Positions 14,477 through 40,919 of a stretch of DNA of 64,000 nucleotides are shown here, in pieces; positions within the stretch are counted from its first letter, which is position 1; the number at the start of each line of letters is the position of its first letter. This stretch comes from Hysterangium stoloniferum (taxonomy: Eukaryota > Basidiomycota > Agaricomycetes > Hysterangiales > Hysterangiaceae): assembly GCA_015178975.1 (NCBI GenBank), contig WHVD01000183.1:62001-126000 (forward strand), in the 5' to 3' direction. Position numbers and translations under genes: made by a program. The notes under the pieces were generated by a model, which was not told the origin of the DNA, did no database searches, and saw nothing but the letters and a program-made list of their open reading frames with translations.

Positions 14477-14840
14477 TCAATAGCGCATTATGTGGATGGG
14501 AAAGAGGCGTGGAGAAGCGGCGGGCATTATGTAGCGGATGAGGAAGGTTTGTCCTTGTGTAACTGTAGAGTCGCCGTGGGCTGTGGACTGTGGCAGTCCG
14601 CGGCGGGGCAGTATTGGCGAACTAAATACCCTGTGTCCACTCGTAAATAGCGTCGAGCCAGGGTATCCCCACATCTTGAAGAATTCGGCTTCTGGACACG
14701 GATGAAAGTGCTAATGCCTGCCTGGCGCGATGCAGCGAGCTATCAGAGGAGACGTGAGGAAGAGAGTCCAATGCTACTTTGTTAAGTGATATAGGTTTTT
14801 GCGATAAAGGCGCATTGGTGTTCAGTTCTAAAAACGACAC
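14477..14840 (-). CDS. Possible two-exon small protein, unrecognised
   Basis: Exon 1 begins MSFLELNTNAPLSQKPISLN at 14840 and runs to WTQ, followed by a GTATTTAG donor. An acceptor CTGCCACAG about 45 bases on restores the frame and gives a second exon ending LFPIHIMRY with a stop at 14477. The protein would be about 105 residues, with no recognised domain. It sits between the MFS remnant and the NLR gene. Confidence 0.3.
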
Positions 14841-15073
14841 ATGAAAAATGAAATGAGTAAACTGAAGATAACGATAAATACACCATCAGCCAGAAAACAA
14901 GCCCTGAGGATGCAGCGGATGAAATATGGGTCGATAAGTTGCTCTTTCATAACTACTTTAAATCCCCAATTATGGATACGGGTCAGTTTGGTGTCTTCGA
15001 AAAATCGGTGTGACCCTTATCGCGTCACAGGATCACTTTGGCATTCACAATACCCTTTATCACTCGTTCCAAC

Positions 15074-18000
15074 ATGCCGACTCTGTCTCCTTCTAAACTT
15101 ATCATATCTACCCCCGGATTCGGACTGAAAGAGCTTGCGCCTGGAGGCGAATCTCCCACCATCGAGTAAGTGATACATCCCTGATCATATCCGATCACTG
15201 CTGATCTTCTCCATTTCCTTACAGTATTGTTGCCATACACGACCTCGACGGGCATCGGGAGGAGTCCTTCACTGCAGATAATGGTGTCCTTTGGCTTCGC
15301 GATCTCTTGCCAGAGGCGTTAACTTCTGCCAGAATTCTTACCTACGGTTATGATGCGCGCACCTATGGCGAGAATAGACCACAGCAGGCATTGTATGATA
15401 TATCTCTGGATTTCGTAACCAAATTGTCTGCATTCAGATTCTCTACTGGGACGAATGTTTGTGGTTCTATACATTTTTATTTTTTTCTTCTGATAATTGT
15501 CGTAATGCAGGACCGGCCGTTGATATTCATTGCGCACGGCTTCGGCGGAATCATATTGAAAAATGTCAGTACATCTATACAACACTCTTTGTACCGACTC
15601 ACATTTGTTAGGCACTTATCCATGCAAGCTCGACTCATATGAAGCATCTTCATAATCACAAGGCAGTCGAAATATCAACGTATGGTATAATTTTCATGGG
15701 GACTCCCCATCAGGGTGTCAACCCCGCTGAATCGACTCACACACACGTGGATTCCCAATCACTTGAGCCGTTACTGAAGCATTTGCTTTTACATTCGGAG
15801 GCATTGGACCAACAATTGACACAGTACAATTCCATTGGTGCCCGGTTCAAAACCGTATTTTGCTATGAATTGTATGGCACACCAGGACTGATGGGAACTC
15901 AAGTGAGTCCTGTATGTCTTTCCGACATATGGTTTACTTGACTTCTGCCAGCATATCCCAGCCTCATCGGCTAGAGTCCCCGGGACTGTTGACGCTGAAT
16001 CTCTGGCTATTCACAAGACTCATATCGAAATGGTAAAGTTTCCATCGAAGGAGGATGGAGACTACAACAATATATTTTTCCAATTGCAACAAATGTCGGA
16101 TAATGCTCCTTCTCATATTGAAATGAATTGGATGAAGTGCGGTATTTTTCTACCTGGCATGTCAGGACACAGACAGGTTATGGATACAGGTAAATTTGTG
16201 TGGGCTCCTGTGAACAAGTACTAAGTTCAAGAATTGCCAAAAGATATGGTAGATCTTTGTGGAAAGATTTCTGACTGGCTTACTGCTCCTGATCCATCAG
16301 AGAATTACTTTACAGCACAAAGACTTTGTATGAATGGCACAGGGACTTGGTTTACTACTAGTGCTGAATTCAGGCAATGGAAGAATGGTTCTAAGCCTTG
16401 CTTGTGGATTTATGGAAAGAGTGAGTGGATGGTACAAGTGATATATTGACTTATCTGGAATGTACAGTGGGTTCTGGAAAATCAATCTTGTGGTAAGAAT
16501 GCACCAGTTTTTGTACATATTTTATACATTCACTCCAAATAGCTCCACAATCATCATGGATATTGAAAAGTATTGTAATGCAAAGACATTACATGCAGTG
16601 GCATATTTCTTCTTTGATTCTAGAGATGCACAGGAAGGATTCCGTTTCTATCACAAATTGCTTCGGTCAATTATTAAACAATTGCTTGCACAATGTGCTC
16701 GGGTTCCTCAACCAATGTTGCATATATATAACAATGGACACCAGCCACCAAAATATGACTCTCTGCCTGATATGATCAACCATATCTTAGCTGTCTTTGA
16801 TCATGTTTATATCATTCTAGATGCTTTGGATGAATGTGAAGACCATCAGCAGTTGTTAAGGTGGATTCAAAATCTGGTTGGTCAAAATAGTGGAAAAATA
16901 CATCTTCTAGGCTCTACTCGTCCAGAGAAAAATATCACCACAATGTTAGATTCTTTGGATCTCATCTCACAATATGTGGATCTCAATACTGCTTCTCAAA
17001 ATAATGATATACAGTCCTATATCAAAGATAGAGTACTTTATAGTGGTGACTTCTGTGACTTTTCTGAGGATGTCAGAGAGACTATCCTTGAAAGACTTAA
17101 CAGGGGAGCCAATGGAATGTAAGACTCTTTGAAATATATGTGCAATGTATTTTTTTATTCTTTCTTTCTCTATATTTAGGTTTCAGTGGGTTGCATTGCA
17201 ACTTCACGACCTGCAGGCATGTGGTAGTGAATATGAGATAGAGGAGCAGCTTGACTGTCTCCCAGCAAGCCTCTACAAGACATATACACAAGTCATTGAG
17301 AGAATCTCAAAAAACCGTCAAATTGTTGCTATAAAGTTTCTCCGATGGCTTGCATTTTCATTTCACCCTTTAAAACCAAAGGAGTTAGGGGAAATTCCTG
17401 GGATTAATTCAGAGTTTGAAGTTGGTGGAACAAAGTCCCCTTTCAATCCTAAAGCAGTGTATCATAACCCAAAGGACATTCTTCGGGCCTGCTCAAGCTT
17501 TGTTGTATATACATGTAATGAAGGTAAGTAAGAACATATCTTTACATGAAGATGTGTAACATACCTTGACAGATCACATTAAACTTGCCCATTTCTCTGT
17601 AAAAGAATATCTTATGTTAAATCTTAGTGCTGGAGGGCCACCTTCAGACTTTCATTTGGAAGAGAAACTATCACATGTGCACATAGCACAAATGTGTTTG
17701 ATCTACTTGCTTCAGTTTCAAGAGCAATATTATGGCTCTACAAATAAAGTGTTGGGTATTGAGGACACTCATCACTTATTTAGGTATTGTGCCCTTCAAT
17801 GGATTTCACATTATCAGGATACTGGAGGTGATATGTCTCATAGGATGCTAAAACTGCTGAGGACACTGTTTTTGGAACAAAGCCAACAGTTTAATATATG
17901 GCGAACCAAGAGCTGGTATGGCATGCTTCCCATGGGAGATATTAGGACACAGGATTTGCCATTGCTAGTAGCAATAAAATATGATCTGCTCTCTGTAGTA

Positions 18001-21000
18001 AAGCTGTTATTGGAAGGGTGTGTAGATATCAATGCACAGAGAGATAGTCATTCCAGCACAGCACTAATTATTGCCTGTAAGGAAGGAAGTATTGAGATAG
18101 TCCAGCTACTCCTTGAAAAGGGTGCAAATATTAATGGACAGGCACCTGGTCTTGGTGGCACAGCACTGATTGCAGCATGTTGGAGGGGAAGGATAGACAT
18201 GGTCCAGCTCCTGGTTGAAAAGGGTGCAGATATCAATGCACACACAGATGACAATCATGACACAGCACTGATAACTGCATGCCGGGAAGGAAGCAGCAAC
18301 ATAGTCCAGTTTCTCCTTGAAAGGGGTGCAGATATCAATGCACAGACAGGTGGCAATTTTGACACAGCAATGATTGCTGCATGCTGGGAAGGAAGAATTG
18401 ACATAATCCAGCTGCTCCTTGAAAGGGGTGCAGATATCAATGCAGGTGGCAATTATGGCACAGCACTGATTACTGCATGCTGGGGAAGAAGGATTGACTT
18501 GGTCCAGCTCCTCCTTGAAAAGGGTGGAGATGTCAATGGACAGGCAGGTGTCAATTTTACCACACCACTGATTGCTACATGTCAACAAGGAATAATTGAC
18601 ATAGTCCAACTGCTCCTTAAAAAGGGTGGAAATATCAATGCAAAGGCAGCTGGCAATCTTGGTACAGCACTGATTGCTGCCTGCTGGGAAGCAAGGATTG
18701 ACATGGTCCAGCTGCTCCTCGACAGGGGTGCAGATATCAATGCACAGGCAGGTGGCAATTATAGCACAGCATTGATTGCTGTATGCCGGAGAGGAAGCAT
18801 AGACATGGTCCAGCTACTCCTTGACAGAGGTGCAGATATCAATGCAAAGGCAGGTGGTAATTTTGGCACAGCACTGATTGCTGCATGCTGGAAAGGAAAG
18901 GTGGATGTGGTCCAGCTCCTCCTTGAAAAAGGTGCAGACATCAATGCACATGCAGGTGTCAATTTTGGCTCAGCACTGATTGCTGCATGCCGGAAAGGAA
19001 GCACTAATGTGGTCCAGCTGCTCCTTGACAGGGGTGCAGATATCAATGCACAGGTAGGTGTTAACTATGGCACAGCACTATTTGCTGCATGCTGGGAAGG
19101 AAGTATCAACATGGTCCACCTCCTTCTTACCAGGGGTGCAGATATAAATGCACAGGCTGGTGTGAATTATGGCACAGTACTCATTGCTGCATGCTGGGAA
19201 GGAAAGATTGAAATGGTCCAACTTCTCATTGAACAGGGTGGAGATATCAATGCAGAAGCAGGTGGTAATTATGGCACAGGACTGATTGCTGCATGCTGGG
19301 CAGGAAAAACTGATGTGGTCCAGCTCCTTCTTGAAAATGGTGCAAATGTTGATGCACAGGCAGGTGGTAATTATGGCACAGCACTGATTGCTGCATGTCA
19401 GCAAGGAAGAAAGGGGATAGTCAAGCTACTCCTTAAAAATGGTGCAGATATCAATGCACATGCAGATGGGAATTATGGCACAGCACTGATTGCTGCATGC
19501 CATGAGGGAAGCATTGACATGGTCCAGCTGCTCCTTGGAAGCAGGGCAGATATCAATGCACAGATAGGTGGTAATTATGGTACAGCACTGATTGCTGCAT
19601 GCCAAAGAGAAAGCATAGACATGGTGGGGCTGCTTCTTGATACAGGTGCAGATATCAATGCACATGCAGATGGGAATTATGGCACAGCACTGATTGCTGC
19701 ATGTCATGAGGGAAGCATTGACATGGTCCAGCTACTTCTTAAAAGGGGGGCAGATATCAATGCACAGATAGGTGGCAATTATGGCACAGCATTGATTGCT
19801 GCATGCTGGAAAGGAAGTATTGACATGGTCCAGCTCCTTCTTGAAAGGGGTGCAGATATCAATACACAGGCAGGTGTCAATTTTGGCACAGCACTAATTG
19901 CCACATGCCGGAAAGGAAGGATTGACATGGTCCAGCTTCTGCTTGAACAGCATGCAGATATTAATGTACATGCAGGTGGCAATTATGGCACAGCCCTGAT
20001 TGCTGCATGCCGTGAAGGAAGCATTGACATGGTCCAACTGCTCCTTGAAAAGGGTGCAGATATCAATGCACATGCAGGTGGCAATTATGGCACAGCACTA
20101 ATTGCTGCATGCCATGAAGGAAGCATTGACATGGTTCAGCTGCTCCTTAAAAGGGGGGCAGATATCAATGCACAGATAGGTGGCAATTTTGGCACAGCAC
20201 TGATTGCTGCATGCCAAAGAGAAAGCATAGACATGGTGCAGCTGCTCCTTGACACAAATGCAGATGTCAATGCACAGGCAGGTGGTAATTATGGCACAGC
20301 ACTAATTGCTGCATGTAAGAAAGGAAGCATCCACATAGTCCACCTGCTCCTTGAAAGGGGTTCATATATCAATGCACAAGTGGGTGGCAATTATGGCACA
20401 GCACTGATTGCTGCATGTTCAGAAGAAAGCATCACCATGGTCCAGCTTCTCCTTGAAAGGGGTGCAGATATCAATGCACAGGCATGTGGCAATTTTGGCA
20501 CAGCACTGATTGTTGCATGTAGGAAAGGAAGTACCCATGTGGTCCAGCTGCTCCTTGAAAGGGGTGCATATATCAATGCACAGGCAGGTGGCAATTATGG
20601 CACAGCACTATTTGCTGCATGCTGGGAAGGAAGAGTGGACATGGTCCAGCTCCTCCTTGAAAATGGTGGAGATGCCAATGCACAAGCAGGTGGCAGCTTT
20701 GGCACTGCACTGATTGCTGCATGCTGGAAAGGACAGATCAACATGGTCCAGCTGCTCCTTGAAAAGGGTGGAAATATCAATGCACAGGCAGTTGGTAATC
20801 TTGGCACAGCACTGATTGCTGCATGCTGTAAATTAAGCATCCACATGGTCCAGCTGCTCCTTGAAAATAATGCAGATATTAATGCACAGGCAGGTGGCAA
20901 TTTTGGCACAGCACTGATTGCTGCATGCTGGAAAGGAAGCATCATCATTGTCCAGCTGCTTCTTGACAAGGGTGCAGATATCAATGCACAACCAGGTGGC

Positions 21001-21345
21001 AATTATGGAACAGCATTGATTGCTGCAAGCATGGAAGGAAGCATTGATGTGGTTCAGCTGCTTCTTGAAAGGGGTGGAGATATCAATGCACAGGTAGGTG
21101 GCAATTATGGCACAGCACTAATTGCTGCATGCTGGCAAGGAAGAATTGACATTGTCCAGCTGCTCCTTGAAAGGGGTGCAGATATCAATGCACAAGTAGG
21201 TGGTGAATATGGCACAGCACTAATTGCTGCATATAGGAAAGGAATGGTTAACATAGTCCGGCTGCTCCTTGAAAAGGATGCAGATATGAATATCACTATT
21301 ACTCCTGGGGAAACCATAACTGCTCTTCTAGAAGCAATACACTAA
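15074..21345 (+). CDS. NLR-like receptor: SesB/DUF676-like hydrolase + NACHT + about 33 ankyrin repeats
   Basis: STAND-class protein of the fungal NLR type, known in related proteins for self/non-self or symbiont recognition. Ten exons fit in phase: 15074-15165, 15225-15456, 15511-15564, 15612-15902, 15952-16189, 16226-16420, 16468-16492, 16543-17118, 17180-17523 and 17573-21345. This gives about 1,939 residues. Residues 1-300: alpha/beta hydrolase of the SesB kind (IVAIHDLDGHREESFT, LRDLLPEA, ARILTYGYDA, IIFMGTPHQG). The nucleophile elbow reads AHGFGG (116-121), with Gly where Ser is expected. NACHT: Walker A GKMGSGKS (366-373, built across two introns), Walker B YIILDALDE (465-473), and the closing GANGMFQWVALQL motif. 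From about residue 811: near-identical 34-residue ankyrin repeats (TALIAAC..VQLLLE.GADIN). CpG content drops sharply near 16180. Nothing suggests a broken frame. Confidence 0.9.
17956..21315 (+). repeat. Tandem array of about 33 102-bp ankyrin-coding repeats
   Basis: All units lie in the last exon of the NLR gene and keep frame. Almost every unit is exactly 34 codons; the fifth is two codons shorter. Units share TALIAAC, MVQLLLE and GADINAQ at protein level and long identical runs at DNA level. Variation concentrates right after TALIAAC and after LLLE, the surface-exposed turn and helix positions of ankyrin repeats. A distinctive pair of units recurs six units (612 bp) apart, at about 19480-19683 and 20092-20295, indicating block duplication. 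Confidence 0.9.
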
Positions 21346-22335
21346 GATAATATTGTGATAGTTCAATTATTTCAATTTTGGTTGATGCCAGTTCACAACA
21401 GGTCATTATAGTTTCCTAAAATGATTATCTTGGTAGCCTGGCCTACTATTGTTTCTAGTTCATTCCAGACTAGTTGAAGCCTTCTTCCATTTTTAGAACC
21501 TTCAAAACAGTTTTATATGATGTATCTATTTATTTTGCAATGATGACTATGTAGCTTAACCATATGGGAGGCTGGAATGCCAAGAGTTGGAGTGTTAAGA
21601 GTTTTGGCTGGCTGATGATGTCTTGAAGAGGATTAAGTGAAAGAGTAGGGGAACTTAAGTTGATATTCAAATCAAAGAACTATAGCATACAAGATGAGAG
21701 TTACATACATACATATATACTAAAAACAAGATGGGTGATTGGTAGGCCAAACACAGAGGTAAGAAGACAAATGGGTCAAAGGAAGCAAGTGACAGAATGG
21801 AGGGATGATAGGGACTAAATACAAAGTAATAGTAGAATACAAAAAGGGTTTGAGGTGGCAAATGGTGTGCACATGTAGAGTGAATGATGGGAAAGTGTCA
21901 AGATGGGAGTGGAATGGAATGATTAAAAGGGCAACCTATATTAAACCAAGTGTTGGGGTGCTGGGGGCAGTGATGCCATAACCAGGGGTACCAATATTGG
22001 GATGGTGGAGGGTTGCCAGAGTGAAAAAAAGCTACAGGAGGCTGAAAAGGTGAGGATCCTAACAGTATACTTGTGGGTGCATTGAGCACTAATAGATAAG
22101 AGACTTTCACCCCCTAACCTTGATGTGTGTTAAGGTCTAGGGTTCAAAGCTAAAGGTGACAGGATTATGGGGGCCCACAGGATTAGTAATGTACTCAAAT
22201 GGGAGGTTTGGTTCTACAAGTCAAGTGGAACTTGGCTTCAATGTATGTATGTATTGCACCCTTGCACAGACTGTCAGGTTGCTCCAGTATTTCAAAACAA
22301 GCAAGTAGTATGCAACAGAAACTAAAGTTGACACT
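21346..22335. other. Downstream flank of the NLR gene with repeat-derived sequence
   Basis: No gene was seen. Position 21660-22064 holds a reversed copy of dispersed repeat E. A possible further LTR start (TGTTAAGG) lies at 22138, but its other end was not found. Confidence 0.5.
21660..22064 (-). repeat. Dispersed repeat E, reversed copy
   Basis: Read on the minus strand from 22064 it starts TGTTAGGATCCTCAC and matches the plus-strand copy at 25108 over about 250 bases (CACTCTGGC.ACCCTCC, CATTTGCCA, TTCCCATCAT). Left end is approximate and no target-site duplication was found. Confidence 0.55.
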
Positions 22336-22692
22336 TGTTAAGTGCTGTGTCAGGAACTTATTCTGGAACTATTGGAAAGTCACTGGGAAGTCAGGAACTA
22401 TCAGATAGGGTTAGGATGTTGGCTTCAGCTTATGTGCTGCACCTCTACACAAATGCTCAAAAGTCCTTAATTTCAAAGGTGAGACTTACGATGGAAGGTA
22501 CAGATATTCAGAGTTCCGAAGAGTTCCGAATATCGAGCGTACAGAAAGATGGAAGAGGGAATAAGAAACTAAGTCAATATCAGATCTAAAGTAAAGTACA
22601 AATTTGCGGAAACTAATATAAGTCTTCTTGTTATTGTACTACAAACTAAGACCACAATAAGATGGAAATGGAAGTATTCTGAAATGGGAATA

Positions 22693-24217
22693 TGTTAGGG
22701 TATGTACATGGCAGGTCTCCGGAGAAACCCGCGGAATATCCAGTAGGACTTGGCTTCAGCTTATAGGCTGCGCCCTCGCTAGATTGTGTTGTCCAATTTC
22801 AGACAGGCAGACGGGAATCCCAGGGAGTCCAGGTGGGGGGTCATGGGTCGAGGGGTCGTAGGTCGGAGGTCATGGGTCGTGAGTCGAGATAGGTAAGAGA
22901 GATAGATGTGCTGGAGCCTGTGGGCTCCGACTAGTGTGAGTGGTGTAATTCAAGTAGGAGTTTAGAGTGGAAAATGTATTAGATTACTGGGGAATCTAAG
23001 CCAATTTTCTGACTGGATTGTATGTACAACATCTGCCAGTTTAAATAGACCGTGGAGTGAATGACATACCAAATCCAGTAATGATGAAATGAAACTAACA
23101 AAACATAAAACAGGAATAGTAAACACTAAGTTTGGTGTTAGGAACGGGATGGAATGGAGCAGAGTGTTAAGAACTGAAAACTGACTAATGTCGGTGGCTG
23201 ACAGGGACCGATCGGAAGGACTTGGCTTCAGCTTATGTGCTGCGCCCTTGCAAATATCTGTAGGGTGTCCTTAGATTTTGGGCGGGCGAAGACTAATCCT
23301 AAAGAGCTCCTTTCGGCGAGATACCAATTGGAACCGAAGGACAAGTCGAACGTCGGGCCAAGGCGAGCGCACGTGAAGGTGGATGGGGGGGTTCTTAGTA
23401 TGGGACTGTTACAGACGTATGAGGGTATTCTGAGTCGATATTCTGATTGCCTAGTAACTACAACTACAGCGGGTTCATATACAAGTAACAGGCGTCTAGA
23501 AAATACTAATGGGGAGAAGGGTGGAAAATGGCATTAACAATAAGCTTGGCTAGGAACGGGAAGTTTATGATTAGTTCGGAGGCCGATGATAACCGAGAGC
23601 GGGATTATGATAAAAGGAAATAGTTCAAGGACTACAAATATAGATAGACATATGTGAAACATAAGATTGAACGGATCAACATAATAAAAGGGACGTATCA
23701 AAAGTTTGACCAGACAATACGAGTTATTTTGACGTGGGCGTAAACAGAGTTTGATCTTCGCGAAAACATACATCAGCTTCGGGGCTGATGGTTTCCGAGA
23801 TGGTGACTTGAAACGTTGATAAGTGGCGATAACCTTGGGACCAATAGGGTTGCGACACGGTCGTAACACAGAGTCCGAATAGTGACAAATCATAAACCAT
23901 AATGGGAAATGGAGCAGGAGCGGAGTCCAAATTGTGATAGGTCATTTGACTAAAACGGGAATGGGGCTCTGTTAGAGGGATGACGGGTTTTACAAGCGGG
24001 GTCCAGTGACTGACATGCGGGATGAGGTCGGACATAGACAGGGGCGGAGTCCGGTAGGTTTTCCGGTGACTGAAACACAATGTAATGAAGATGAACGTGG
24101 ACAAGTCTGACATACAGAGTCCAGGTGGGAATTCTGGTAAACTGATAATGGGTGCGTATAGGGCGTGGGTACATATAAGTTAGTGCCTGGAGTCCAGCGG
24201 GAATTCCAGTTGTAACA
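22693..24217 (+). mobile_element. Solo LTR-B copy 1, interrupted by LTR-A
   Basis: TGTTAGGG...TTGTAACA with target-site duplication GAATA (22688-22692, 24218-24222). Net length is about 816 bp. Carries the family core GGACTTGGCTTCAGCTTATA. LTR-A sits at 23165-23868. Confidence 0.9.
23165..23868 (+). mobile_element. Solo LTR-A copy 1
   Basis: 704 bp, TGTTAAGAACTG...GGTCGTAACA, flanked by CAGAG (23160-23164, 23869-23873). Inserted within LTR-B copy 1. CpG-rich, so probably young. Confidence 0.9.
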
Positions 24218-24349
24218 GAATACAACAAGACAAATTGGGAAGACAATATTCTGAAACGGGAATATAATAAACAAATGAGTGAATACTTGTCAACAGACAA
24301 ATTACCAAATGTGGAACAAGGGAAGAGTGTGGAAGATACAGTAACTATG

Positions 24350-24947
24350 TGTGAGAGGTATGGCGAAATATAGTCAGGAAATATAGTCTGGATGAGCTCA
24401 TACTATATTTCCTTTATTATTTCTACTTTCTCTATTTTATTATACACTTATAACTAGTTCGACGACCTATGTATGCGGTACATCGACTCTTGTGGGCGCA
24501 TACATGCCAGACTTATGTATTCTAGCGCCCGTAGTTAAAACTCAGACACTTTTTTACCCCGCAACCATGACTTACCCAGACACACAGTTAGTGTCCTGTA
24601 AGTTGTGATTGGGGTATCATCTTGACCGTCACAGATGGGCTTCAACTATCTACACAATCATAGTTTCGAACTGTGCCAGTCGAAACTCCACTTATATCTC
24701 AATCCACGTGAACAACATCTGCACTACTCTATCATTCGACTCTCGTAACTCTTTTCTACACTCGAGCAGTCACTCAGAATCGCACCTAACGGTCGATTCC
24801 CTTTATTCGTTTTAGCTATCTACTCTACCTTAGATAGTTACTTCACTCAGACATATTGAACTAAATAGTCAATACAACTACGTGTCATACCTAAACGGTT
24901 GATATTCTTCGTATATAGAACAGTTAGAACTTCCACCACTCTTCACA
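24350..24947 (-). mobile_element. Solo LTR-C copy 1, reversed
   Basis: 598 bp, TGTGAGAGG...CTCTTCACA, flanked by CTATG (24345-24349, 24948-24952). Matches, in reverse, the split copy at 32147-33603. Confidence 0.9.
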
Positions 24948-25107
24948 CTATGATGTTCCCTAGTCGGAGGTCGGAAGTCAGAAGTCGGAAGTTGGATATT
25001 GAAACATCTGGGAACGGGTCGTAACAACACTCAGCTTAATCAATTGGGGGGCTGAAGTACTAAAGGTTGAGGTAAGATGAGTCTTGGTGGGCCAAAGACT
25101 TAGCAAT

Positions 25108-25480
25108 TGTTAGGAACCTCACTTTTGGGCCCCCACAACTTGTTTTCACTCTGGCCACCCTCCAGCATCCCAACCTTGGTATCCCCAATTGCAATGTCAC
25201 TGCCTCTGGCACCCTACTATTTTGTTTACTATATATTACAATTTTGGTCATCCCACTCCACTTCTGTCACAACACCTTCCCATCATCTGTATTCTACATG
25301 TACACATCATTTGCCATCTCCAACCATTTAGTATTCTTCTGTCACAAAAACATACAAGATTGACCTCAACAACTCTTCAACTTGACTCCAGGTCAGAAAA
25401 TGGTGTTGTCATGGAGCTTGAAATGCACAACATGTGGGAAGATTATGTAATCAGCATGTGAACTCTCAAATTTTTTAAAA
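25108..25480 (+). repeat. Dispersed repeat E, forward copy
   Basis: Begins TGTTAGGAACCTCAC and aligns with the reversed copy ending at 22064. Right end is uncertain. CpG is almost absent, suggesting age. A short 90-codon frame inside has no known motif. Confidence 0.5.
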
Positions 25481-25574
25481 GAAAATTATAATTGATTGGA
25501 TAATTTTGACTTGCAAAATTGTTGGCATAAACTTGTGAGATTCTGTAGAAGAAAAGATAGATAGATGGCAGAAA

Positions 25575-25720
25575 TGTTAGGATCCCATCATTTTGGACCC
25601 CCACAACCTGTTTTAGGCCCAAAACCCACCATCAACTCACTGTTGGAACCCCTGCCCTAAGTATCACCACTTGTGGCATCTCCAACACTTGTTTCACTAT
25701 AGTAGTTAACCTTTTAGTTT
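25575..25720 (+). repeat. Dispersed repeat E, third partial copy
   Basis: Begins TGTTAGGATCCC and shares the CCCCCACAACCTG-like block with the 25108 copy. Only the start is recognisable. Confidence 0.4.
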
Positions 25721-25779
25721 TCTGTTCCATCTCTGTCCCATTCACTGGAGGTATCCCAAGGTTTTTGGAGTTGGAAAAC

Positions 25780-26197
25780 CTTTTGAAAATTCTACTATTT
25801 GGCCAAATTTTATAAAAATTATTATATAGTTATTATATTTACTTTTAGTTAATTATAAATATAATATTTTATTATAATAATATATAACTATATATTGCCT
25901 TGATTATGCATGATTATTTCACATCGTGTTTTGCCCTTGTCGGAGTTTGTGACAAGTGTCGGGTTTGTGACAACTTATCATGTTCATGACAATATTCTTG
26001 TGCATTGTGCATAAGTGCTGAGTCGCCAGTGAATGACATGTTAATCAAAAAAGAATAAAAGATAGAAATTTCATAGCTCACTCAATTTATTAGATAAAAA
26101 TACAAAATAAATTACATAATTTCAAGATAAATCAAGACAATATTGTACAGTTTTATTGTCATGATATAAATACATTTAAATCTTCTTTTTCACAATT
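25780..26197. other. Very AT-rich spacer
   Basis: Long A/T runs around 25800-25910 and 26040-26190, with short GTTTGTGACAA-type direct repeats near 25950. No coding signal. Confidence 0.5.
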
Positions 26198-26696
26198 TGT
26201 TAGGGGAGATTGGGTTAAAAAATGGGAAATACATGACAGAAACCCACAGGAAAGCTGGTAGGACTTGGCTTCAGCTTATAGGCTGCACCCTTGCAAGATC
26301 ATGGCATCCAATTTCAGACAGGCAGATGGGAATCCTGGGGAGTCTGGGAGTAGTTGGTGGGTCAAGAGGTCGGAGGGTTGTTTGTGGGAATCCCATGGAG
26401 GTTGAGGGGTCAGGTGGTGATGGGTTGGAGGTCGAGTGTTACGACTGGAATTCCCACCGGACTCCAGGCACTAACTTATATGCACCTGCACCCTATACCC
26501 ACTGATTGTCAGTTTACTGGAATTCCCACTGGACTCTGTATGTCAGACTTGTCCATGTTCAACTTTGTTACATTGTGTATCAGTCACCGGAATACCCGCT
26601 GGACTCCATCCCTGTCTATGTCCGACCTCGTCCCATGTGTCAGTCACCGGACCCCACTCGGAAAACCCATCATCCCTCTAACTGAGTGTTAAGAAC

Positions 26697-27409
26697 TAGA
26701 AACTGACTAATGTCGGTGGCCGACGGGGACCGATCGGAAGGACTTGGCTTCAACTTATATGCTGTGCCCTCGCAAATATCCGTAGGTTGTCCTTAAATTT
26801 CGGACAGGCGAAGACTAAATCCTAAGAAGAACTTTTCGGCAAGATACCGATCGGAACCGAAGGACAAGTCAGGTGTCGGGCCAAGGGGTCGGGGCCGAGA
26901 GTGGGCGAGCGCACGCGAAGGCGGAAGAGAGATTCTCCTAGTATGAGACTGCTATAGACGTATGAGGGTATTCTGAGTCGATATTCTGATTGCCTCGTAA
27001 CTACAATTACAGCGAGTTCATATACAAGTAACAGGTGTCTAGAAAGTACTAATGGGGAGGAGGGCGGAAAACGGCATTAACAATAAGCTTGACTAGGAAC
27101 AGGAAGTTTATGATTAGTTCGGAGGCCGATGATAACCGAGAATGGAAATTACGATAAAAGGAGATAGTTCGAGGACTACAAATATAGTTAGACATATGTG
27201 GAACATAAGATGAGACGGATCAACATGATGAAAAGGACATATCAAAACATAACCAGACAGAAAGGCGTAGTCGGGTTTGATTGACCGGAGAGCATACGTC
27301 AGCGTCGGGGGTCCGACGGCTTCCGAGGTGTTGTATTGTCGGAGACGTATAACGAGGGTATTCCATCGGGGGCCGTCGGTTTGCGAAGGGTTACGACACG
27401 GTCGTAACA
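26697..27409 (+). mobile_element. Solo LTR-A copy 2
   Basis: 713 bp, TGTTAAGAACTAG...GGTCGTAACA, flanked by CTGAG (26692-26696, 27410-27414). Confidence 0.9.
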
Positions 27410-27578
27410 CTGAGCCCCATTCCCGTTTTAGTCAAATGACCTGTCACGATTCGGACTCTGCTCTGTTCCATCCTGTTCCTAACACCAAATTTGGTGTTTA
27501 CTATTCTTGTTTTATGTTTTGTTAGTTTCATTTCATTATTACTGGATTTGGTATGTTATTCATTCCACGGTCTATATA

Positions 27579-28248
27579 GGAGGGTGTTTATAATTACTCT
27601 AATCTCAAATATTTACTAATAAAAGTCTTATTTTTACAAAACTCCATCTTTAAATAGTGATATCTATTCTGAAACAATTATATCATCAAAAAACAATCAT
27701 CAGAAATAGTTCTCCATATTACATCTTATACAACCCATAGTTATTTAATAGATTTCATTGTATATAATTTCCTTCCTTTTACAAATATCTACTAATACTT
27801 TTATTAGTACTTTTTAAAAATTGTAATGTAGTTATTTCCATGTAAAATATGTAAAATATTATTGGAAATTTTTCATACCACAGCTGTCTTTATTAAGTGA
27901 AATCACCTATATATTCTGGGTATGTTGAATCAAGTAGAAATCTGTTCAGATTGACAGATCCATTCCGAAGTAATATATATGTATTTAGAGGTGCCAATGA
28001 TATACATATGCATGGAATGGACTATCTAAAGGTATCTATTTTTTAAAAGTATTAGTGTTTCAAACTACTAATTTTTTTTATTGTCTACTCATGTCCAGAA
28101 AGATTCTTTAGTTTGTAATGTACAAGAGAGTTTAAAACTTTTTGAAAGTTTTAAAAACCAAATTATATTTGAATCACATCCCAGATGTTTAAATGACCTT
28201 TAGAGTATATTAGAATTTGGTATACTTAATAGTTTTCAAATATCCTCC
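27579..28248. mobile_element. MITE-like AT-rich insert
   Basis: 670 bp with imperfect terminal inverted repeats (GGAGGGTGTT at the left, GGAGGATATT read inward from the right) inserted at CTATATA/GTCTGG of LTR-B with a 3-bp ATA duplication. The uninterrupted site is visible in other LTR-B copies (for example around 34050). There is no coding capacity, so it is a non-autonomous DNA element; the superfamily is not determined. Confidence 0.65.
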
Positions 28249-29996
28249 ATAGTCTGGCAGATGCCGCACATACAATCCAGTCAGAAAATTGGCTTAGATT
28301 CCCCCCAGTAATCTAATACATTTTCCACTCTAAACTCCCTCTTGAATTACACCGCTCCCACTAGTTGGAGCCCACAGGCTCCGACACTTCTATCTCTCTT
28401 ATTTATCCCAACTCCCCGATCTCTCAACCCACAACCTCCGATCTACGACCCCTCGACCCATGAACCCCACCTGGACTCCCCGGGATTCCCGTCCACCTGT
28501 CTGAAATTGGACAACACGATCTCATGAGAGCACAGCCTATAAGCTGAAGCCAAGTCCTACTGGATTTCCCACGGGTTTCTCCAGAACCCACCGTGTATGT
28601 ACCCTAACATCGAGTGATAGATAGGTCAGAGCCCATGAGCTCCAATGAGGTAATTAGTAGTGTGTTTCAAAGAGAGGGATAGAGCAGAAAATGTACTGAG
28701 ATTACTGGGGGAATTTAAGCTGATTTTCTGACTGGATTGTACATATGTACAACATGTGCCAGACTATATAGACTGTGGAATGTATGTACATATGTTATAC
28801 CAAATCCAGTAATAATTAAATCCAAACTAGTAATCATGAAATGAGATAAGTAAACACCAAATTAGGTGTTAGGAGTGGAACAGAATGGGGGTGGAGTCTG
28901 AAACGTGACAGGTCATTAGACCATAATGGGAATGGGGCAGGAGCAGAGTCCAAAACGTGACAGGTTGTTAGACCATAATGGGAACAAGGCTCAGTTAGAG
29001 AGCTGATGGGTTTTCCGAGTGGGTCCAGTTGACTGATGCATGGGACAGGGTCAGAGATAGACAGGTATGTTATGCGTGGGTCCTAGCAGGTATCCTAGTG
29101 ACTGATTCATGAGACAACTAAGGTCAGACATGGGCAAGTTTGTCATCTGGGTCCCAGTGGGTATTCCAGTTAACTGATAACTAGTGTGTAAAGGGTGTGG
29201 GTGCCTATAGGGTAGTGCCTGGAGTCCAGTGTGTTTTCTGGTCATAACACAGACTAATGAACTTCATGTAGCTTTCTGCTGAGTCATTGCCAATGCATGA
29301 CTGGTTTGTATAGTAGGTTTCCAGTGGCATGCTAGAGTAGCATTATGTATCATGAGTCTTACAACTACATCCACTGATGTTTTCTGTTCATAGAGAGTGC
29401 TAATATATATTGACCACTCTGCTGGCATGGATCCTAGGATGATTTTTTGAAACTCTGAATCATCTATTCGCTTCCCTGTCCAACAGCTCTTTCCCAAGCC
29501 TCACAAAGAGTTGTAAAGTGTGTAGTTATATTGACACCATCTTTATGTTTGATTGCCCATAATTCATTTTCTGCATTCAAACAACCAATATCTGAAACAG
29601 CATTGTATATTGTTGTGTGTTCCACACTTCTGCTGTAGACTTGATTCCAAGACCTAGAGGGTTTTTAACATTTAAAGTGACCATGCTTTTTGCATATGCA
29701 TCTTGTTGGTCCCACTTGTCTGATGTAGGTGTCTGACACGAATCAGATTTTACTCAATAAAGTCAAATAAACAATTGAAGAATATTCAACAATATTGAAT
29801 ACAGATGCCTCATTCGATGAAGTATCAATTCATCCTGTTAATAAAGTGTGAGGCAAAAATAGGACACAGAGGCTCACTAATTAAGTTGAATAAAGGCTCG
29901 GAAAAGTTTAACCATTATATAATACAGTAATTATTATTATTGTACAGGTTTTCTGACTGACTTCCTTCATTCCTATCATTGCCCTTTGTCACAAAT

Positions 29997-30421
29997 TGAT
30001 TATTCTTCAATAAAGTCGAATAATATTCTATTAATCGAACTCGAAAGCCTCATTCAACGAAGTATACATATATTCGCCCTGTCGATGAAGTAAGAGGCTA
30101 TTACCAGTCGCAAGAACTCACAGAAGTATTTGTCAAAGAAGTTACAACAAGATAGATTACTAGTATCACTAATTTACAGATATTTCGACTGACTTCCCTC
30201 GCTCCTTTCGTAGCCCTTTTATGCTTTTCTTCATATCGTTATGACTATGTTATGAACTAATAATGAAATCATACATGACGTCAAAATGAGACATGTCGAA
30301 AGAGATTCGATGTTGTCGAATAATGTTCGGGTTTGTTGAGTCGAATTTGATGAGTCGAAGAGTTGTTGAAAGTTACCTTTGATTGTTTGTGACAATGTTG
30401 TGACTTGTGACAGTTGTGACA
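29997..30421 (-). mobile_element. Solo LTR-F copy 2
   Basis: 425 bp, TGTCACAAATTG...GTTGTGACA, flanked by CCCTT (29992-29996, 30422-30426). Lies inside LTR-F copy 1. Confidence 0.9.
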
Positions 30422-30627
30422 CCCTTATATACTATACATATCTTATTTACCTATGATGATAATATGATATCAAAGTGAAATCATCAATGACATCAAACTG
30501 AGACAAGTCGAAGATATTTGAGATTGTCAAAGATATTCAAGATTGTCAAAGATATTGTTGAAGAATAGTCAAGTCGGAAGTCAAGTTGGAAATCAAGTCA
30601 GAAAGTTGAAGGAATGTTGAAGAAAGT

Positions 30628-31056
30628 TGTCATGAATCGATTATTCTTCAATAGAGTCAAATAATATTTTACTAATCGAACTTGAAAGCCTCGTTCGACA
30701 AAGTATATATTTGCCCTGTCGATGAAGTAAGAGGCTATTACCAGTCGCGAGAACTTACGGAAGTATTTGTCAAAGAAGTTACAACAAGTTAGATTACTAA
30801 TATCACTAATATACAGATATTTCAACTGACTTCCCTCGCTCCTTTCATAGCCCTTTTATACTTTCCGTCGTATAGTTATGACTATGTTATGAACTAATTA
30901 TGAAATCATATATGATGTCGAAATGAGACATGTCGAAAGAGATTCAATGGTGTCAAATAATGTTCGGTTTGTCGAGTTGAATTCGATAGGTCAAGAGGTT
31001 GTTGAAAGTTACCTTTGAATGTTTGTGACAATATGTGACATGTGACAGTTGTGACA
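30628..31056 (-). mobile_element. Solo LTR-F copy 3
   Basis: 429 bp, TGTCATGAATCG...GTTGTGACA, flanked by AAAGT (30623-30627, 31057-31061). Lies inside LTR-F copy 1. Confidence 0.9.
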
Positions 31057-31541
31057 AAAGTTAAATTGAATATTATTGAAATTTGAGCTTGTAGGTTCAT
31101 GACAGTGTCTTCAATCCCCAATAACTATTCACTGTTGTTTGGGGAGTCAATGGCTTAGTTATGCTCCCTTCCAGGTATCCATGGACTCCTCTAGCATTTG
31201 CCACTGATAGGATTGTTTCTTTCCAGGTGTACCATTTGGTGCCATTGAATCATTCTTCCACCATAAGCTGGAATAATGCAAGTTGTGAAAATGATGTCAT
31301 ATTGTTGTAGGGTTGGTTATATCTGCTTGAATAATCAGGTCAAGGTCGGTATCAGTATTGGGGTCAGCACAATCAATCAATGTTTTGGGTGGGTTGTGGT
31401 TCTGTGCACACTGTTCAACAAGGCATGGCTAATGGCTCAGTTCAGTTTCAGCATGTGACACTTTTCAATGTGGCATCCACAGGTTTGGGTTTGGGTTTGG
31501 GTTCAGATTTGGGTTCAGTGTGCAATGCTTTTTGATGATGC

Positions 31542-32021
31542 TGTCACGAACGTACAAACTCAAATTTTGATAATATTCAATTTAATATTTTTTCGACATT
31601 CCTTTGACATTCCTTTGACATTCCTTTGACATTCCTTCGACTTTCCGACTCGACTTCCAATTCGACTATTCTTCGACAATATCTTCGACTTGTCTCAGGT
31701 TGATGTCATTGATGATTTCACTTTGATATCATATTATCATCATAGGTAAATGATATATAGTATATAAGGGCAATGATAGGAATGAAGGAAGTCAGTTAGA
31801 AAACCTGTATTATATTATATTATTCTGTATTACATAATCGTTGAACTTTTCCGAATCCTTCTTTGACTTATTTATTCGTGAGCCTCTGTGTCCTATCTTT
31901 GCCTCATGCTTTATCAACAGGACGAATTAATACTTTGTTGAATGAGGCATCGTTATTCGATATTGTTGAATATTCTTCGATTGTTTATTTGACTTTATTG
32001 AGTAAAATTCGATTTGTGACA
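31542..32021 (+). mobile_element. Solo LTR-F copy 4
   Basis: 480 bp, TGTCACGAACG...GATTTGTGACA, flanked by GATGC (31537-31541, 32022-32026). Confidence 0.9.
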
Positions 32022-32146
32022 GATGCATCCACAGTTCAGGGATTGTTTATACTCAGTTTATATCTGAGTTGGGATCAATGTTGGTTTGGGTTCATGGTCA
32101 GCTCCTTGATCATAGCTGAGTTGGGGTCGATGTCAGTTTGGATTTG

Positions 32147-33603
32147 TGTGAAGAGTGGTGGAAGTTCTAACCATTCTATATATGAAGAATATCGACCATT
32201 TAGGTATGACACAATGATGTATTGACTATCTAAGTCTAATACAGGCCAAACACATATTAACTATTTAGTTCAATACAGTTAAGAGGATTAGCTATCCTAA
32301 GTAGAATAGATAGCTAAGACGAATAAAAGAGGATTGACTTTGAAGTTCAATTATGAGCAACTACTCAAGTGTTTGAGGAAATAACGAGAGAGTCAAATAA
32401 ACAGAGTAGTGTGGATATAGTCCGTGCGGATCAAGATAACAGTTTGAGTTTCGACTAGTGTAGTTCAAAACTATAATTGCGCTGATAGTTAAAGTGTTAG
32501 GATACATACAGGGTGGGTTTCCGGAGAAACCCACGGGATATCCAGTAGGACTTGGCTTCAGCTTATAGGCTGCACCCTCGCTAGATCGTGTTGTCCAAAT
32601 TCAGACGGACAGACGGGAATCCCGGGGAATCTGGGCGGGGGTCGTGGGTTGAGGGGTCGTAGGTCAGAGGTTGTGGGTCGTGAGTCGAGATTGGTGAGAG
32701 AGATAGATGCACTGGAGCCCACGGGCTCCAACTAGTGTGAGTGGTGTGATTGAAGTAGGGTTTTTAGAGCGGAAAATGTATTAGATTACTGGGGGAATCT
32801 AAGCCGATTTTCTGACTGGATTGTATGTATAACATCTGCCAGTTTAAATAGACCATGGAGTGAATGTCATACCGAATCCAGTAATGATGAAACGAAACGA
32901 GCAAAACATAAAACGGGAATAGTAAACACCAAATTGGTGTTAGGAATGGGACAGAACGGAGCGGAGTCCGAATAGTGACAAATCATAAACCATAATGGGA
33001 AATGGAGCGGGAGCGGAGTCTGAATCGTGACAGGTCATTTGACTAAAATGGGAATGGGGCTCGGTTAGAGGGATGACGGGTTTTCTGAGTGGGGTCTAGT
33101 GACTGACACATGGGACGAGGTCAGAAATAGACAGAGACAGAGTCCAGTGGGTTTTCCGGTGACTGAAACACAATGTAATGAAGTCAAACATAGATAAGTC
33201 TGACGTACGGAGTCCAGTGGGAATTCCGGTAAACTGATAATGGGTGCATATAGAGCGTGGGTGTGTATAAGTTAATGCCCGGAGTCCGGTGGGATTTCCG
33301 GTCGTAACATAAAGCCCATCTGTGATAGTCGAGATGATACCCCAATCACAACTTGCAGGACACTAAGTGGGTGTCTGGGCAAGTCATGGTTACGGGGTAA
33401 AAAGTGTCTGAGTTCTAACTATAGGTGCTAGAATACATAGGTCTTATGTATGCACCCACAAGAGTCTATGTACTGAATGCATAGGTCGTCAAACTAAATA
33501 TATGTGTGTAATAAAATAGAGAGAGAAATAGAAATAATAATAGAAATATAGTGTGGGCTTGTCCGGACTATATTTCAGAATATATTTTGCAGTACCTCTC
33601 ACA
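32147..33603 (+). mobile_element. Solo LTR-C copy 2, interrupted by LTR-B
   Basis: TGTGAAGAGTGG...CCTCTCACA. Flanks ATTTG (32142-32146) and GTTTG (33604-33608) differ at one base, a decayed duplication. Net length about 637 bp. Confidence 0.8.
32495..33309 (+). mobile_element. Solo LTR-B copy 4
   Basis: 815 bp, TGTTAGGATAC...GGTCGTAACA, flanked by TAAAG (32490-32494, 33310-33314). Inserted in LTR-C copy 2. Confidence 0.9.
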
Positions 33604-33697
33604 GTTTGGGTCAGCTCCTTGATTGTAGCTGAGTCAGGGTTAATGTTGGTTTGGATTTGGGGTCAGCTCCTTGATTGTAGCTGAGTTAGGGTCAATG

Positions 33698-34463
33698 TGT
33701 TAGGGTACATACACAGTGGGTTTCCAGAGAATCCCGAGGGAAATCTGGTAGGACTTGGCTTCAGCTTATAGGCTGCACCCTCGCGAGATCGTGTTGTCCA
33801 ATTTCAGGCAGGTGGACGGAAATCCCGGGGAGTCCAGGTGGGGTTCATGGGTCAAGGGGTCGTAGGTCAGAGGTTGTGGGTTGAGAGGTTGGGGAGTCGG
33901 GATAAATAAGAGAGATAGAAGCATTGGAGCCCATGGGCTCTGACTAGCGGGAGCGGTGTAATTCAAGGAGGAGTTTAGAGTGGAAAATGTATTAGATTAC
34001 TGGGGGGAATCTAAGCCGATTTTCTGACTGGATTGTATGTACAACATCTGCCAGACTATATAGACCGTGGAATGAATAACATACCAAATCCAGTAATAAT
34101 GAAATGAAACTAGCAAAACATAAAATGAGAATAGTAAACACCAAACACCAAATTTGGTGTTAGGAATGGGATGGAACGGAGTGGAGTCCAAATCGTGACA
34201 GGTCATTTGACTAAAATGGGAACAGGGCTCAGTTAGAGGGATGACGGGTTTTACAAGTGGGGTCCAGTGACTGATGTGTGAGATGAGGTCGGATATAGAC
34301 AGGGACGGAGTCCAGCGGGTATTCCGGTGACTGATACACAATGTAACGAAGTCAAACGTGGACAAGTCTGGTGGGAATTCTGGTAAACTGACAATCAGTG
34401 CGTATAGGGTGCAGGTGTGTATAAGTTAGTGCCAGGAGTCCAGTGGGAATTCCAGTCATAACA
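33698..34463 (+). mobile_element. Solo LTR-B copy 5
   Basis: 766 bp, TGTTAGGGTAC...AGTCATAACA, flanked by CAATG (33693-33697, 34464-34468). Confidence 0.9.
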
Positions 34464-34746
34464 CAATGTCAGTTTGGGTTTGTTATAATCAGGTTGGGGT
34501 CAGTGCAGTTGGGAGACAATGGTTGGTGTTATGGTTGTATCAGGGATCAGGGTCAGCACAATCAGTATTAGTGTGATCAGAGGTCAGTGTTTGGGTTGTG
34601 TCAATTTGTTGTTTAGTAACTTGGGTTGTGAGTCAGGGTCAGGATAGTTTAGTATTTCAGTGATCAGTTGGGGTCATTTTCATATTTAGATCAGGGTTGA
34701 TTGGTTTGGGGTCCTTTTATCAGGTTATCAGTATCTGTTCAGCAAC

Positions 34747-35459
34747 TGTTAAGAACTGGAAACTGACTAATGTCGGTGGCCGACAGGGACCGATCGGAAG
34801 GACTTGGCTTCAGCTTATGGGCTGCGCCCTCGCAAATATCCGTAGGATGTCCTTAAATTTCGGGCGGGCGAAGACTAGTCCTAGTGAGTACCTTTCGGCG
34901 TGATACCGATCGGAATCGAAGGACAAGTCGGGCGTCAGGCCAAGGGGTCGGGGCCGGGAGTGGGCGAGCGCACGTGAAGGCGGATGGGGGAAGTCTTAGT
35001 ATGAGACTGATACAGGTGTATGAGGGTATTCTGAGTCGATATTCTGATTGCCTAGTAACTACAATTACAGCGGGTTCATATACAGGCATCTGGAAAATAC
35101 TAATGGGGAGAAGGGCGGAACACGGTATTAACAATAAGCTTGACTAGGAACGGGAAGTTTATGATTAGTTCGGAGGCCGATGATAACCGAGAGCGGGATT
35201 ACGATAAAAGGAAATGGTTCGAGGACTACAAATATAGATAGACATATGCGAAACATAAGATTGAACGGATCAACATAATAAAGGGGACGTATCAAAGTTT
35301 GACCAGACAATACGAGTTATTTGACGTGGGCGTAAATGGAGTTTGATCTTCGCGAAACATTCGTCAGCTTCGGGGCCGATGGTTTCCGAGAGGATGACTT
35401 GAAACGTTGACAAGTGGCGATAACCTCGGGGCCGATAGGGTTGCGACACGGTCGTAACA
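34747..35459 (+). mobile_element. Solo LTR-A copy 3
   Basis: 713 bp, TGTTAAGAACTGG...GGTCGTAACA, flanked by GCAAC (34742-34746, 35460-35464). Confidence 0.9.
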
Positions 35460-35685
35460 GCAACTTGGGATGGGACCCATAACCTATAGCAGATAATATA
35501 TCTTAGTCAACAGATCATGAGAATTAACTAAGGTGTTATCTATCTAGACACTGGTTATAACTACTTTGTGAACAAAAGAATAGTGAAACAAAAGAAAGCC
35601 TACATGTCCAAACAAGGTTACACATTTCATCTACTGTCCTTCTCCTTTGGGTCGTGCCATGAGCCTGCATAAGCCCCTAAATCTA

Positions 35686-35800
35686 ACAAAGCCATGGGAT
35701 AAAACGTATATCCAGTTTGCGCAGCAAGGCCTTTCCATCAACCTCGGCATCCACCACACGAGAAAAAAATGTATGAGGCTTCTCCACAAATTCCAGCTTG
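35686..35800 (-). pseudogene. N-terminal remnant of an MFS permease
   Basis: Reading leftward, the translation contains VVDAEVDGKALLRKLDIRFI followed by PWLC. This is the conserved first-exon signature of allantoate/nicotinate-type MFS permeases; the intact gene here has DEKKLVRKLDWALVPW. Nothing resembling the membrane helices follows before LTR-A copy 3. It may be the other end of the remnant at 13274-13960. Confidence 0.55.
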
Positions 35801-35899
35801 GGGTGGGACACGATCAGACCCAATTTCGAGATGATTCCAATTAATAACCTTTACATATGGTATAATCGATCCAACATGGTTATGGTCTCAGCTCCAGAT

Positions 35900-36340
35900 G
35901 AACTTGGCAGATGAAGTGTAAGTACACCTTGGTTTTTTTTTCTTTTCCATTTTTATCTACCGTGGACGCGACTCATGGAGTGCGTTCGTCATAGGGTACA
36001 AGGGATCTGGGGGTATATAACGGATTTGACTGGAATATTAAATAGTTCGGATTGTCTTTCGCTATTACAGCGAGGTCGGCTTGTATCTTCTCTCTTCACT
36101 GTGACCGCATATGGAACACACCGTTGGGAAGAGAGATTTTTTAAACCGATGAAGGTGTTTTGGAGTGGGCACATTTGATCCTCAGCTGTGCTTGGATACT
36201 TTGCTGACGTCCCGTTGTGATTGTCAACGAGCCTGTGAAAGGATGCAACCACTGGATAGCAGACAGCACATTTTTCAGTGTTATGAAGTAGGTATAGGCA
36301 TCTAAACTTGTTTTCAAAACATGTTTAACCTTTACACATG
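35900..36340 (+). other. Coding-like but unassigned stretch
   Basis: A 67-codon plus frame (35975-36178) and, in another frame, a stretch ending ...QHIFQCYE before a GTAGGTA donor near 36290 look protein-like. No consistent gene model or family was found, so it may be a gene fragment left at the edge of the transposon block. Confidence 0.25.
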
Positions 36341-36597
36341 TTTTATCAGGATGGTAGAAATTGACAAAATTTCGTCACCCTTCTCCTTTAGTATTTTCCC
36401 GCATCTCCTGTCTTGTTTACGGGGAGGGGAGTGTGTAACAGAGGTAATAGATCTCTTGGTTTGGTAGCCAAGCCTCCCACCGCTACTTGTCCACATAGCT
36501 TGAGCTAATAGTGAAATGTGCCGTTTGTAATTGTACATGCTATATATAACAAATCGAATATTCAAACAGTACAATCAATGCTAGACGGGTTTGAATT

Positions 36598-36652
36598 CTG
36601 TAAAGGTGGTAATGGTCTCCCACCACGGACATATGTTCTAAATGATAGAAGA
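36598..36652 (-). repeat. Degenerate tandem copy of the last TUL1 exon
   Basis: Repeats 36655-36709, which hold the terminal exon of the Tul1 gene, including its TTTAG acceptor and the ATATGTCCGC block. In the copy a two-base loss and substitutions destroy the Cys residues. It lies directly beyond the stop codon. Confidence 0.7.
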
Positions 36653-36656
36653 GTTT

Positions 36657-39600: not shown

Positions 39601-39781
39601 TATGTGATAAGCCCGTCTCAGTTATTATAACAAGTAGCTCTCACCTTCGAGCGGGGGGTAATGGTTGTGCGACAATTGGTTCATTCCTCTCTTCAGCATC
39701 GTTCACGGTGGCTGCATTTCGCCTGTCCATGAGTGAAGGAGGCGCTGATGAGAATCGTGGGAAGTCATACTGCTTTGTCAT
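36657..39781 (-). CDS. TUL1: Tul1/Dsc1-like transmembrane RING ubiquitin ligase
   Basis: Membrane E3 ligase of the Golgi/endosome Dsc complex, acting in membrane-protein quality control and, in fission yeast and aspergilli, SREBP cleavage. The N-terminal luminal part has a hydrophobic segment (SSMLFLIFMLFLMTGGG), NxT/S sites and the conserved STVRAPPLVLDGVLISKNCG block (about 38400). Several membrane helices follow between 38200 and 37080 (for example VYLGLLVLLARQI, VVSMIFFFNVIFSPVLALF). The C-terminal RING is assembled by splicing three exons: CAICIEPI and YAWAPCHHVF, then HTRCLEQWLAIK, then NICPQCRRALPPL with the stop at 36657. Start may be 39781 (MTKQYDFPRF) or the in-frame Met at 39730, which leaves more room for the divergent NNF1 promoter. 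Confidence 0.88.
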
Positions 39782-39792
39782 GCTTTTATATC

Positions 39793-40678: not shown

Positions 40679-40919
40679 CATTCAATAGGTCGTGTGTATG
40701 AGACGGTTTCAGACTACCACGCCTTTTTATTCATGTCGCTTTGTATTAGCTTAGCTGTACAGTATTTGCCGGGGCACCTACCATGTACCATGCGTTGAGT
40801 GGAAATATTCCTTCTGCAGTCAACAGTCCTTTTTCATTGCTTTGACAAATACTTGATGGTACTTATCACCTGGATGTTCACCCACACGTCTTATACAATC
40901 GTCACAGATCCTTGAATTA

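Follow-up and report, generated by a model that had tools for sequence, protein, structure and literature searches.

A SesB-NACHT-ankyrin receptor gene with glycine at the nucleophile position of its hydrolase domain, within a large fungal paralog family

Gene model, domains and paralogs

The stretch of DNA analyzed here (the window, 64,000 nucleotides) carries on its forward strand a receptor gene whose features are collected in Table 1. Its nine introns are all of the GT-AG type and 36-61 bases long, and the 1939 codons read from the genomic sequence have no internal stop. The nine introns of the part that encodes residues 1-800 were recovered identically by a home-made splice-aware homology aligner, and the paralogs L011, L012, and L013 each have nine introns at positions matching those of the window gene. 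The initial annotation had proposed a hydrolase, a NACHT domain, and ankyrin repeats in a single frame of ten exons, and the splice junctions, the open frame, and the agreement of the aligner bear this out. Beyond the gene, the window is gene-poor from 21346 to 40919, with only two overlapping open reading frames of at least 150 amino acids between the receptor gene and position 40920.

Table 1. Features of the receptor gene in the window
Feature	Position	Strand	Basis
Whole receptor gene, ten exons, 1939 amino acids	15074..21345	+	GT-AG junctions, open frame, Pfam
Exon 1	15074..15165	+	gene model
Exon 2, with the HGxxG oxyanion motif (reads HDLDG)	15225..15456	+	gene model
Codon 37, GAC (Asp); Gly in 56/61 paralog domains	15241..15243	+	paralog alignment
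Exon 3, 54-base nucleophile-elbow exon, DRPLIFIAHGFGGIILKN	15511..15564	+	gene model
Codon 118, GGC (Gly), replacing nucleophile Ser (AGC/AGT in 56/61)	15538..15540	+	codon comparison
Exon 4, with GTPHQG (residues 156-161) and candidate acid Glu212	15612..15902	+	gene model, paralog alignment
Codon 212, candidate catalytic acid Glu (putative role), kept	15867..15869	+	Glu in 56/61
Exon 5, with candidate catalytic His247	15952..16189	+	gene model, paralog alignment
Codon 247, candidate catalytic His (putative role), kept	16021..16023	+	His in 60/61
Exons 6-9 and introns, NACHT/STAND part with Walker A and Walker B	16226..17523	+	gene model, Pfam
Exons 6, 7, 8, 9	16226-16420, 16468-16492, 16543-17118, 17180-17523	+	gene model
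Exon 10, end of STAND part, ankyrin array, stop codon	17573..21345	+	gene model
Tandem array of a 102-base unit, 32.1 copies, ankyrin units	18020..21291	+	repeat analysis

The encoded protein consists of a SesB/DUF676-like hydrolase domain, a NACHT domain, and about 32 ankyrin units, in this order. Within the first 878 residues, Pfam detects NPHP3_N (2.7e-37), NACHT (2.5e-12), and ankyrin repeats, and with Walker A reading GKMGSGKS and Walker B reading VYIILDALDEC, the description of these motifs as intact is upheld. The best Pfam match of the hydrolase domain is DUF676 (E 0.0023), the family named in the initial annotation, at a score of 17.9 bits that lies below the cut-off of 20.3. The relatives L050 and L073 pass this cut-off. 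As the serine-bearing L012 also falls below it (15.4 bits), the low score of the window domain reflects divergence and not the glycine alone. Identities of 47-77% to eight paralog domains place the window domain among SesB-like/DUF676 homologues. Searches with this domain gave no PDB match at E<=1 with the single sequence, two weak PDB matches with a profile (best E 0.19), and no NCBIfam family.

The gene belongs to a very large family. In the fungal assembly that contains the window (111 Mb, 554 contigs), a search in which 150 of 341 candidates were scored gave at least 172 exon matches at E<=0.001. We fetched 65 loci (L009-L073) and read their domains with the splice-aware aligner. Left out were L069, which has no match to the elbow/exon-4 query, L016, a short piece of the L018 gene, and L052, L058, and L059, which are identical to others; the remaining 60 loci and the window gene give 61 distinct domains, with the near-identical pairs L031/L034 and L042/L044 counted separately. 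These domains represent the relatives that scored best against the window gene and not a random sample. A frameshift or stop is called in the stretch read in 23 of the 61 paralogs; some of these calls, all made with the home-made aligner, may be splice errors, and for the short loci L049-L073 the calls refer to the hydrolase part only. Judged by its sequence, the window gene is an unexceptional member of this very large SesB-NACHT-ankyrin family, nearly all of whose other members have the serine.

The family also includes variant arrangements. In L014, L017, L024, L026, L037, and L041 the hydrolase aligns and a NACHT of the window type does not within the next ~3 kb, so that the hydrolase stands alone or with another module; in L014, this ~3 kb holds no NACHT-like frame of at least 150 amino acids. 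In L018/L016 (G000:C24, ~767.4-769.8 kb), exon 4 is split by about 1.8-1.9 kb of extra sequence that looks like an insertion. Outside the assembly, 57 pattern stretches examined in viral contigs contained no relative, and 53 examined in bacterial genomes contained two, both with serine (L074 and L075). In L074 (JAQNCM010000443.1), a SesB-like hydrolase precedes a P-loop STAND sequence that contains DALDEC, the two lying in different frames; the contig is filed as a Mucilaginibacter MAG and looks like fungal contamination.

The hydrolase active site across the family

The nucleophile elbow of the window protein reads AHGFGG at residues 116-121, and the spliced gene model thus confirms the glycine codon to which the initial annotation had drawn attention. 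Across the 61 domains, the window included, the elbow residue is serine in 56, glycine in four, and deleted in one, with the codons AGC (30), AGT (26), GGC (3), and GGT (1). Glycine is found in the window gene, in L011, in L051 (whose contig also carries an identical copy, L052), and in L040, where the motif as a whole is PYGYGG, while in L027 an in-frame deletion of 9 bases removes AHS from the elbow. As 56 of the 61 paralogs have serine and the two distant relatives from the bacterial-genome collection, L074 and L075, read AHSLGG, serine is ancestral.

A different exon that supplies GHSxG would have removed the anomaly, and such an exon was sought in the three forward frames of 14500-16400. 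Three loose matches to the elbow motif came up: the first (14650) lies upstream of the ATG, the second (15740) is out of frame, and the third, HSEA, is in frame in exon 4 (about 15792). As none of the three is an HSxGG elbow, an alternative serine-bearing exon was rejected and the loss of the serine stands. Ser188, within HSEA, was likewise rejected as a substitute nucleophile because it is conserved in the Ser118 paralogs as well. The paralog alignment and motif scan found no serine or cysteine gained near the elbow and no other residue identifiable as a nucleophile, and the suggestion that another residue takes over this role is therefore not sustained.

The change at the elbow is not the only one in the active site. 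An active serine hydrolase would be expected to present HGxxG and a Ser, Cys, or Asp nucleophile at the elbow; the window domain presents HDLDG and Gly118. Of the 61 domains, 56 retain HG in the oxyanion motif, and HD is confined to the window gene and L063, a broken gene. Glu212 and His247 are both kept in the window domain, their putative places in the triad being assigned from conservation. With the window gene excluded, 53 columns reach 95% conservation; G37D is its sole departure from them, a count of one that other genes share. Column 118 itself lies just below the 95% threshold and hence outside this set.

Further active-site departures are present in every domain that has lost its nucleophile: G37D in the window gene, H159Y in L011, H117Y and E212P in L040, T157I and G161D in L051, and the deletion of H117 in L027, which belongs to the same 9-base event. 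Over 14 motif columns, with column 118 excluded, such a departure is found in 5/5 nucleophile-less genes and 11/56 serine genes (Fisher p=0.0007), although the columns were picked after inspection of the motifs, and the p values of this comparison and of its variants are indicative only. The 11 serine genes include L023 and L039, which count here only because their models begin late or stop early. Restricting the comparison to genes free of lesions in the stretch read gives 3/3 against 3/35 (p=0.0024), and excluding column 117 gives 4/5 against 11/56 (p=0.011). The co-occurrence of these changes fits a real loss of catalysis.

The glycine variants do not appear to descend from a single old change. 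The tree of all codons unites the window gene with L010 (support 100) and not with L011, and a single old glycine clade formed by the window gene and L011 is rejected (AU p=0.0008). With only the hydrolase codons, the rejection is weaker (AU p=0.039; KH and SH p=0.061). The 54-base elbow exons of the two genes differ at two silent sites only, and a conversion of that exon between them is therefore possible. L051 and L040 lie far from the window gene, and the losses are scattered over the tree; L040 has no close sister that shares its glycine, the best other gene being L014 at 56%. As the window gene and L011 do not group and the other two are remote, at least three separate Ser-to-Gly changes and one deletion can be counted, and on these trees the loss of the nucleophile is sporadic and repeated, on separate branches of one family. 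In the first tree, the NACHT sequence used for L048 came from a spurious model, and the later trees of the close clade were built without it.

All four genes with a missense change carry glycine. A random missense change from AGC or AGT yields glycine with a probability of about 0.26 (kappa ~3.2), and if the events were separate, as this calculation assumes, the chance of glycine only is 0.26^3 = 0.017 for three events and 0.26^4 = 0.004 for four. Glycine fits the strained, tight turn of a nucleophile elbow. This is the likely reason for the glycine-only pattern, as the fold would survive such a substitution and the chemistry would not.

Three of the other nucleophile-less loci have features of their own. 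L051 and L052 (G000:C68, ~116.0 kb and 144.9 kb) lie on opposite strands about 29 kb apart, with hydrolase domains identical in protein, glycine at both elbows, and GIPHQD instead of GTPHQG; as far as these features tell, the pair arose by segmental duplication of a gene already without its nucleophile. L027 (G000:C11, ~183.9 kb) is, apart from the exact 9-base deletion of A-H-S, a similar paralog, with a stop and a frameshift further on. L040 (G000:C533, ~433.4-434.3 kb) branches deeply, combines its PYGYGG elbow with a proline at the acid position, has no frameshift or stop over residues 11-796, and is possibly an older dead hydrolase.

Catalytic silence or decay

When these observations are placed together, we lean slightly toward the view that the window gene encodes a complete SesB-NACHT-ankyrin receptor with a dead N-terminal hydrolase, acting, if at all, by binding. 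Such a receptor probably still senses and assembles and cannot cut anything itself: sensing and assembly should still work because the NACHT and ankyrin parts are whole, and hydrolysis should be impossible because the nucleophile is glycine and the oxyanion glycine is aspartate. The initial annotation had envisaged a pseudo-hydrolase acting as a decoy, lipid binder, or scaffold; with the nucleophile serine gone, G37D in HGxxG, and second changes in the other nucleophile-less paralogs, the pseudo-hydrolase is the best reading of the domain rather than a settled one.

Going by the literature on the class, the ankyrin array of a serine-bearing paralog would sense a ligand, the NACHT domain would then oligomerize, and the clustered hydrolases would act on a lipid or ester, with altered membranes or cell killing as the expected outcome. 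The window copy would keep sensing and oligomerization and lack the hydrolysis step. It is conceivable that a silent receptor of this kind joins or blunts the assemblies of its active paralogs, or that it sequesters ligand.

The strongest competing explanation, to which we assign a lesser but appreciable probability, is ordinary birth-and-death decay: among very many redundant paralogs, this one would recently have lost its hydrolase activity, and the gene, though still open, would have no present function. The lesions called in 23 of the 61 paralogs agree with such turnover, as does the scatter of nucleophile losses across the tree, where no old, shared glycine clade was found. Against this, the window gene is free of lesions over its 1939 codons and differs from its family at a single one of the 53 conserved columns of the hydrolase, and L011 is likewise open, across 795 aligned codons and 910 more up to its stop. 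The nucleophile substitutions, moreover, are all to glycine and not mixed.

Evidence from selection can be read in both directions. The dN/dS ratio was estimated in a close clade of eight genes, with branch values on two trees, one of them the hydrolase tree. On the window branch, the hydrolase has a ratio of 0.715 against a background of 0.381 (p=0.037), or 0.704 against 0.386 on the hydrolase tree (p=0.066), and is indistinguishable from 1 (p 0.26-0.28); the window hydrolase is thus relaxed at borderline significance, as decay would have it. The rise is nevertheless a weak argument for decay, as the serine gene L012 has a higher hydrolase ratio (1.36-1.40, p ~0.04, on a short branch); the remaining branches range from 0.30 to 0.52 on the two trees. 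These include L011, with 0.50-0.52 for its hydrolase (p against 1, 0.007-0.018) and 0.625 for its NACHT part. The NACHT part of the window branch has a ratio of 0.364 (p against 1, 1.2e-5), but equally low values (0.37-0.47) are found in L009, L010, L018, and L047, all of which have stops or frameshifts in their models, and the low value therefore speaks of past constraint and not of present function. On balance, a silent receptor that has been kept is somewhat likelier than mere decay because the gene is whole and the elbow substitutions are glycine only; the two are not firmly separated.

It is very improbable that the window domain retains enzymatic activity, whether by means of a different nucleophile or of chemistry other than hydrolysis. 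The retention of candidate acid Glu212, His247, and the GTPHQG motif would suit that idea, but no serine or cysteine has been gained near the elbow, the conserved Ser188 is shared with the Ser118 paralogs, the oxyanion HG has become HD, and second departures accompany the loss of the nucleophile. Just as hard to credit is a true protein with serine, masked by an error in sequencing or assembly or by a wrongly chosen exon: GGC and AGC are one base apart, but glycine recurs in L011, L051/L052, and L040, the unlinked second change G37D and the lack of an alternative elbow exon speak against it, and the next best genome match among the matches listed is only 75% identical, so that no near-identical copy collapsed onto the window gene is seen.

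For the catalytically silent receptor, a broader hypothesis can be formulated, which we regard as speculative and rather doubtful: large fungal NLR repertoires may repeatedly yield dead SesB receptors by Ser-to-Gly change at the elbow, and some of these may be retained as silent partners, which would either enter assemblies of the active paralogs or compete with them for ligands. If true, silent SesB partners would serve fungal innate immunity as an inbuilt layer of brakes or decoys.

Relation to known receptors

SesB-like domains are described as predicted lipases and direct effectors of NLR activation, with a stated relation to SERAC1 (PMC4986451), and as linked only indirectly to cell death (PMC9815663), in the available text of these sources. 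The SesB-like/NACHT/ankyrin NLRs of filamentous fungi (Dyrka 2014, PMC4986451; a Bonometti-type survey, PMC12258605) are described there with the same domain order, large paralog numbers, near-identical ankyrin units, and predicted lipase or esterase N-terminal domain as the window gene, which differs from them in the replacement of its nucleophile serine and oxyanion glycine. The idea of an undescribed system is accordingly abandoned, since the gene is an ordinary family member of the known SesB-NACHT-ankyrin type with a sporadic loss of serine.

Other systems resemble the window gene in part. Human SERAC1-type and Pfam DUF676 serine esterases share with it the family that is its best Pfam match and whose cut-off L050 and L073 pass, whereas the window domain scores below that cut-off and lacks the serine. 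PLP-1 of Neurospora crassa (PMC12881547) is likewise an NLR with an N-terminal lipase-type effector, a patatin; it belongs to an unrelated hydrolase fold family and is active, whereas the window domain is predicted to be inactive. The pseudo-enzyme and integrated-decoy domains of plant NLR systems offer a parallel in that an inactive enzyme domain is put to use in binding, but the window hydrolase is the native effector and not an inserted bait.

The available text of PMC4986451, PMC9815663, and PMC12258605 contains neither the word "catalytic" nor "active site", with no tally of catalytic-residue loss in the first and third of these, and the open-licence full-text literature searched, as far as it was accessible, yielded no report of nucleophile-less SesB NLRs and no binding role for any fungal SesB domain. 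The architecture itself is already known; the nucleophile-less variant appears unreported. Fungal SesB NLRs are assumed to be lipases or esterases on sequence grounds. The dozens of serine copies and several whole or nearly whole glycine copies in one genome provide natural catalytic-dead controls, which make it directly testable whether killing by SesB NLRs depends on catalysis and whether active copies are modulated by dead ones.
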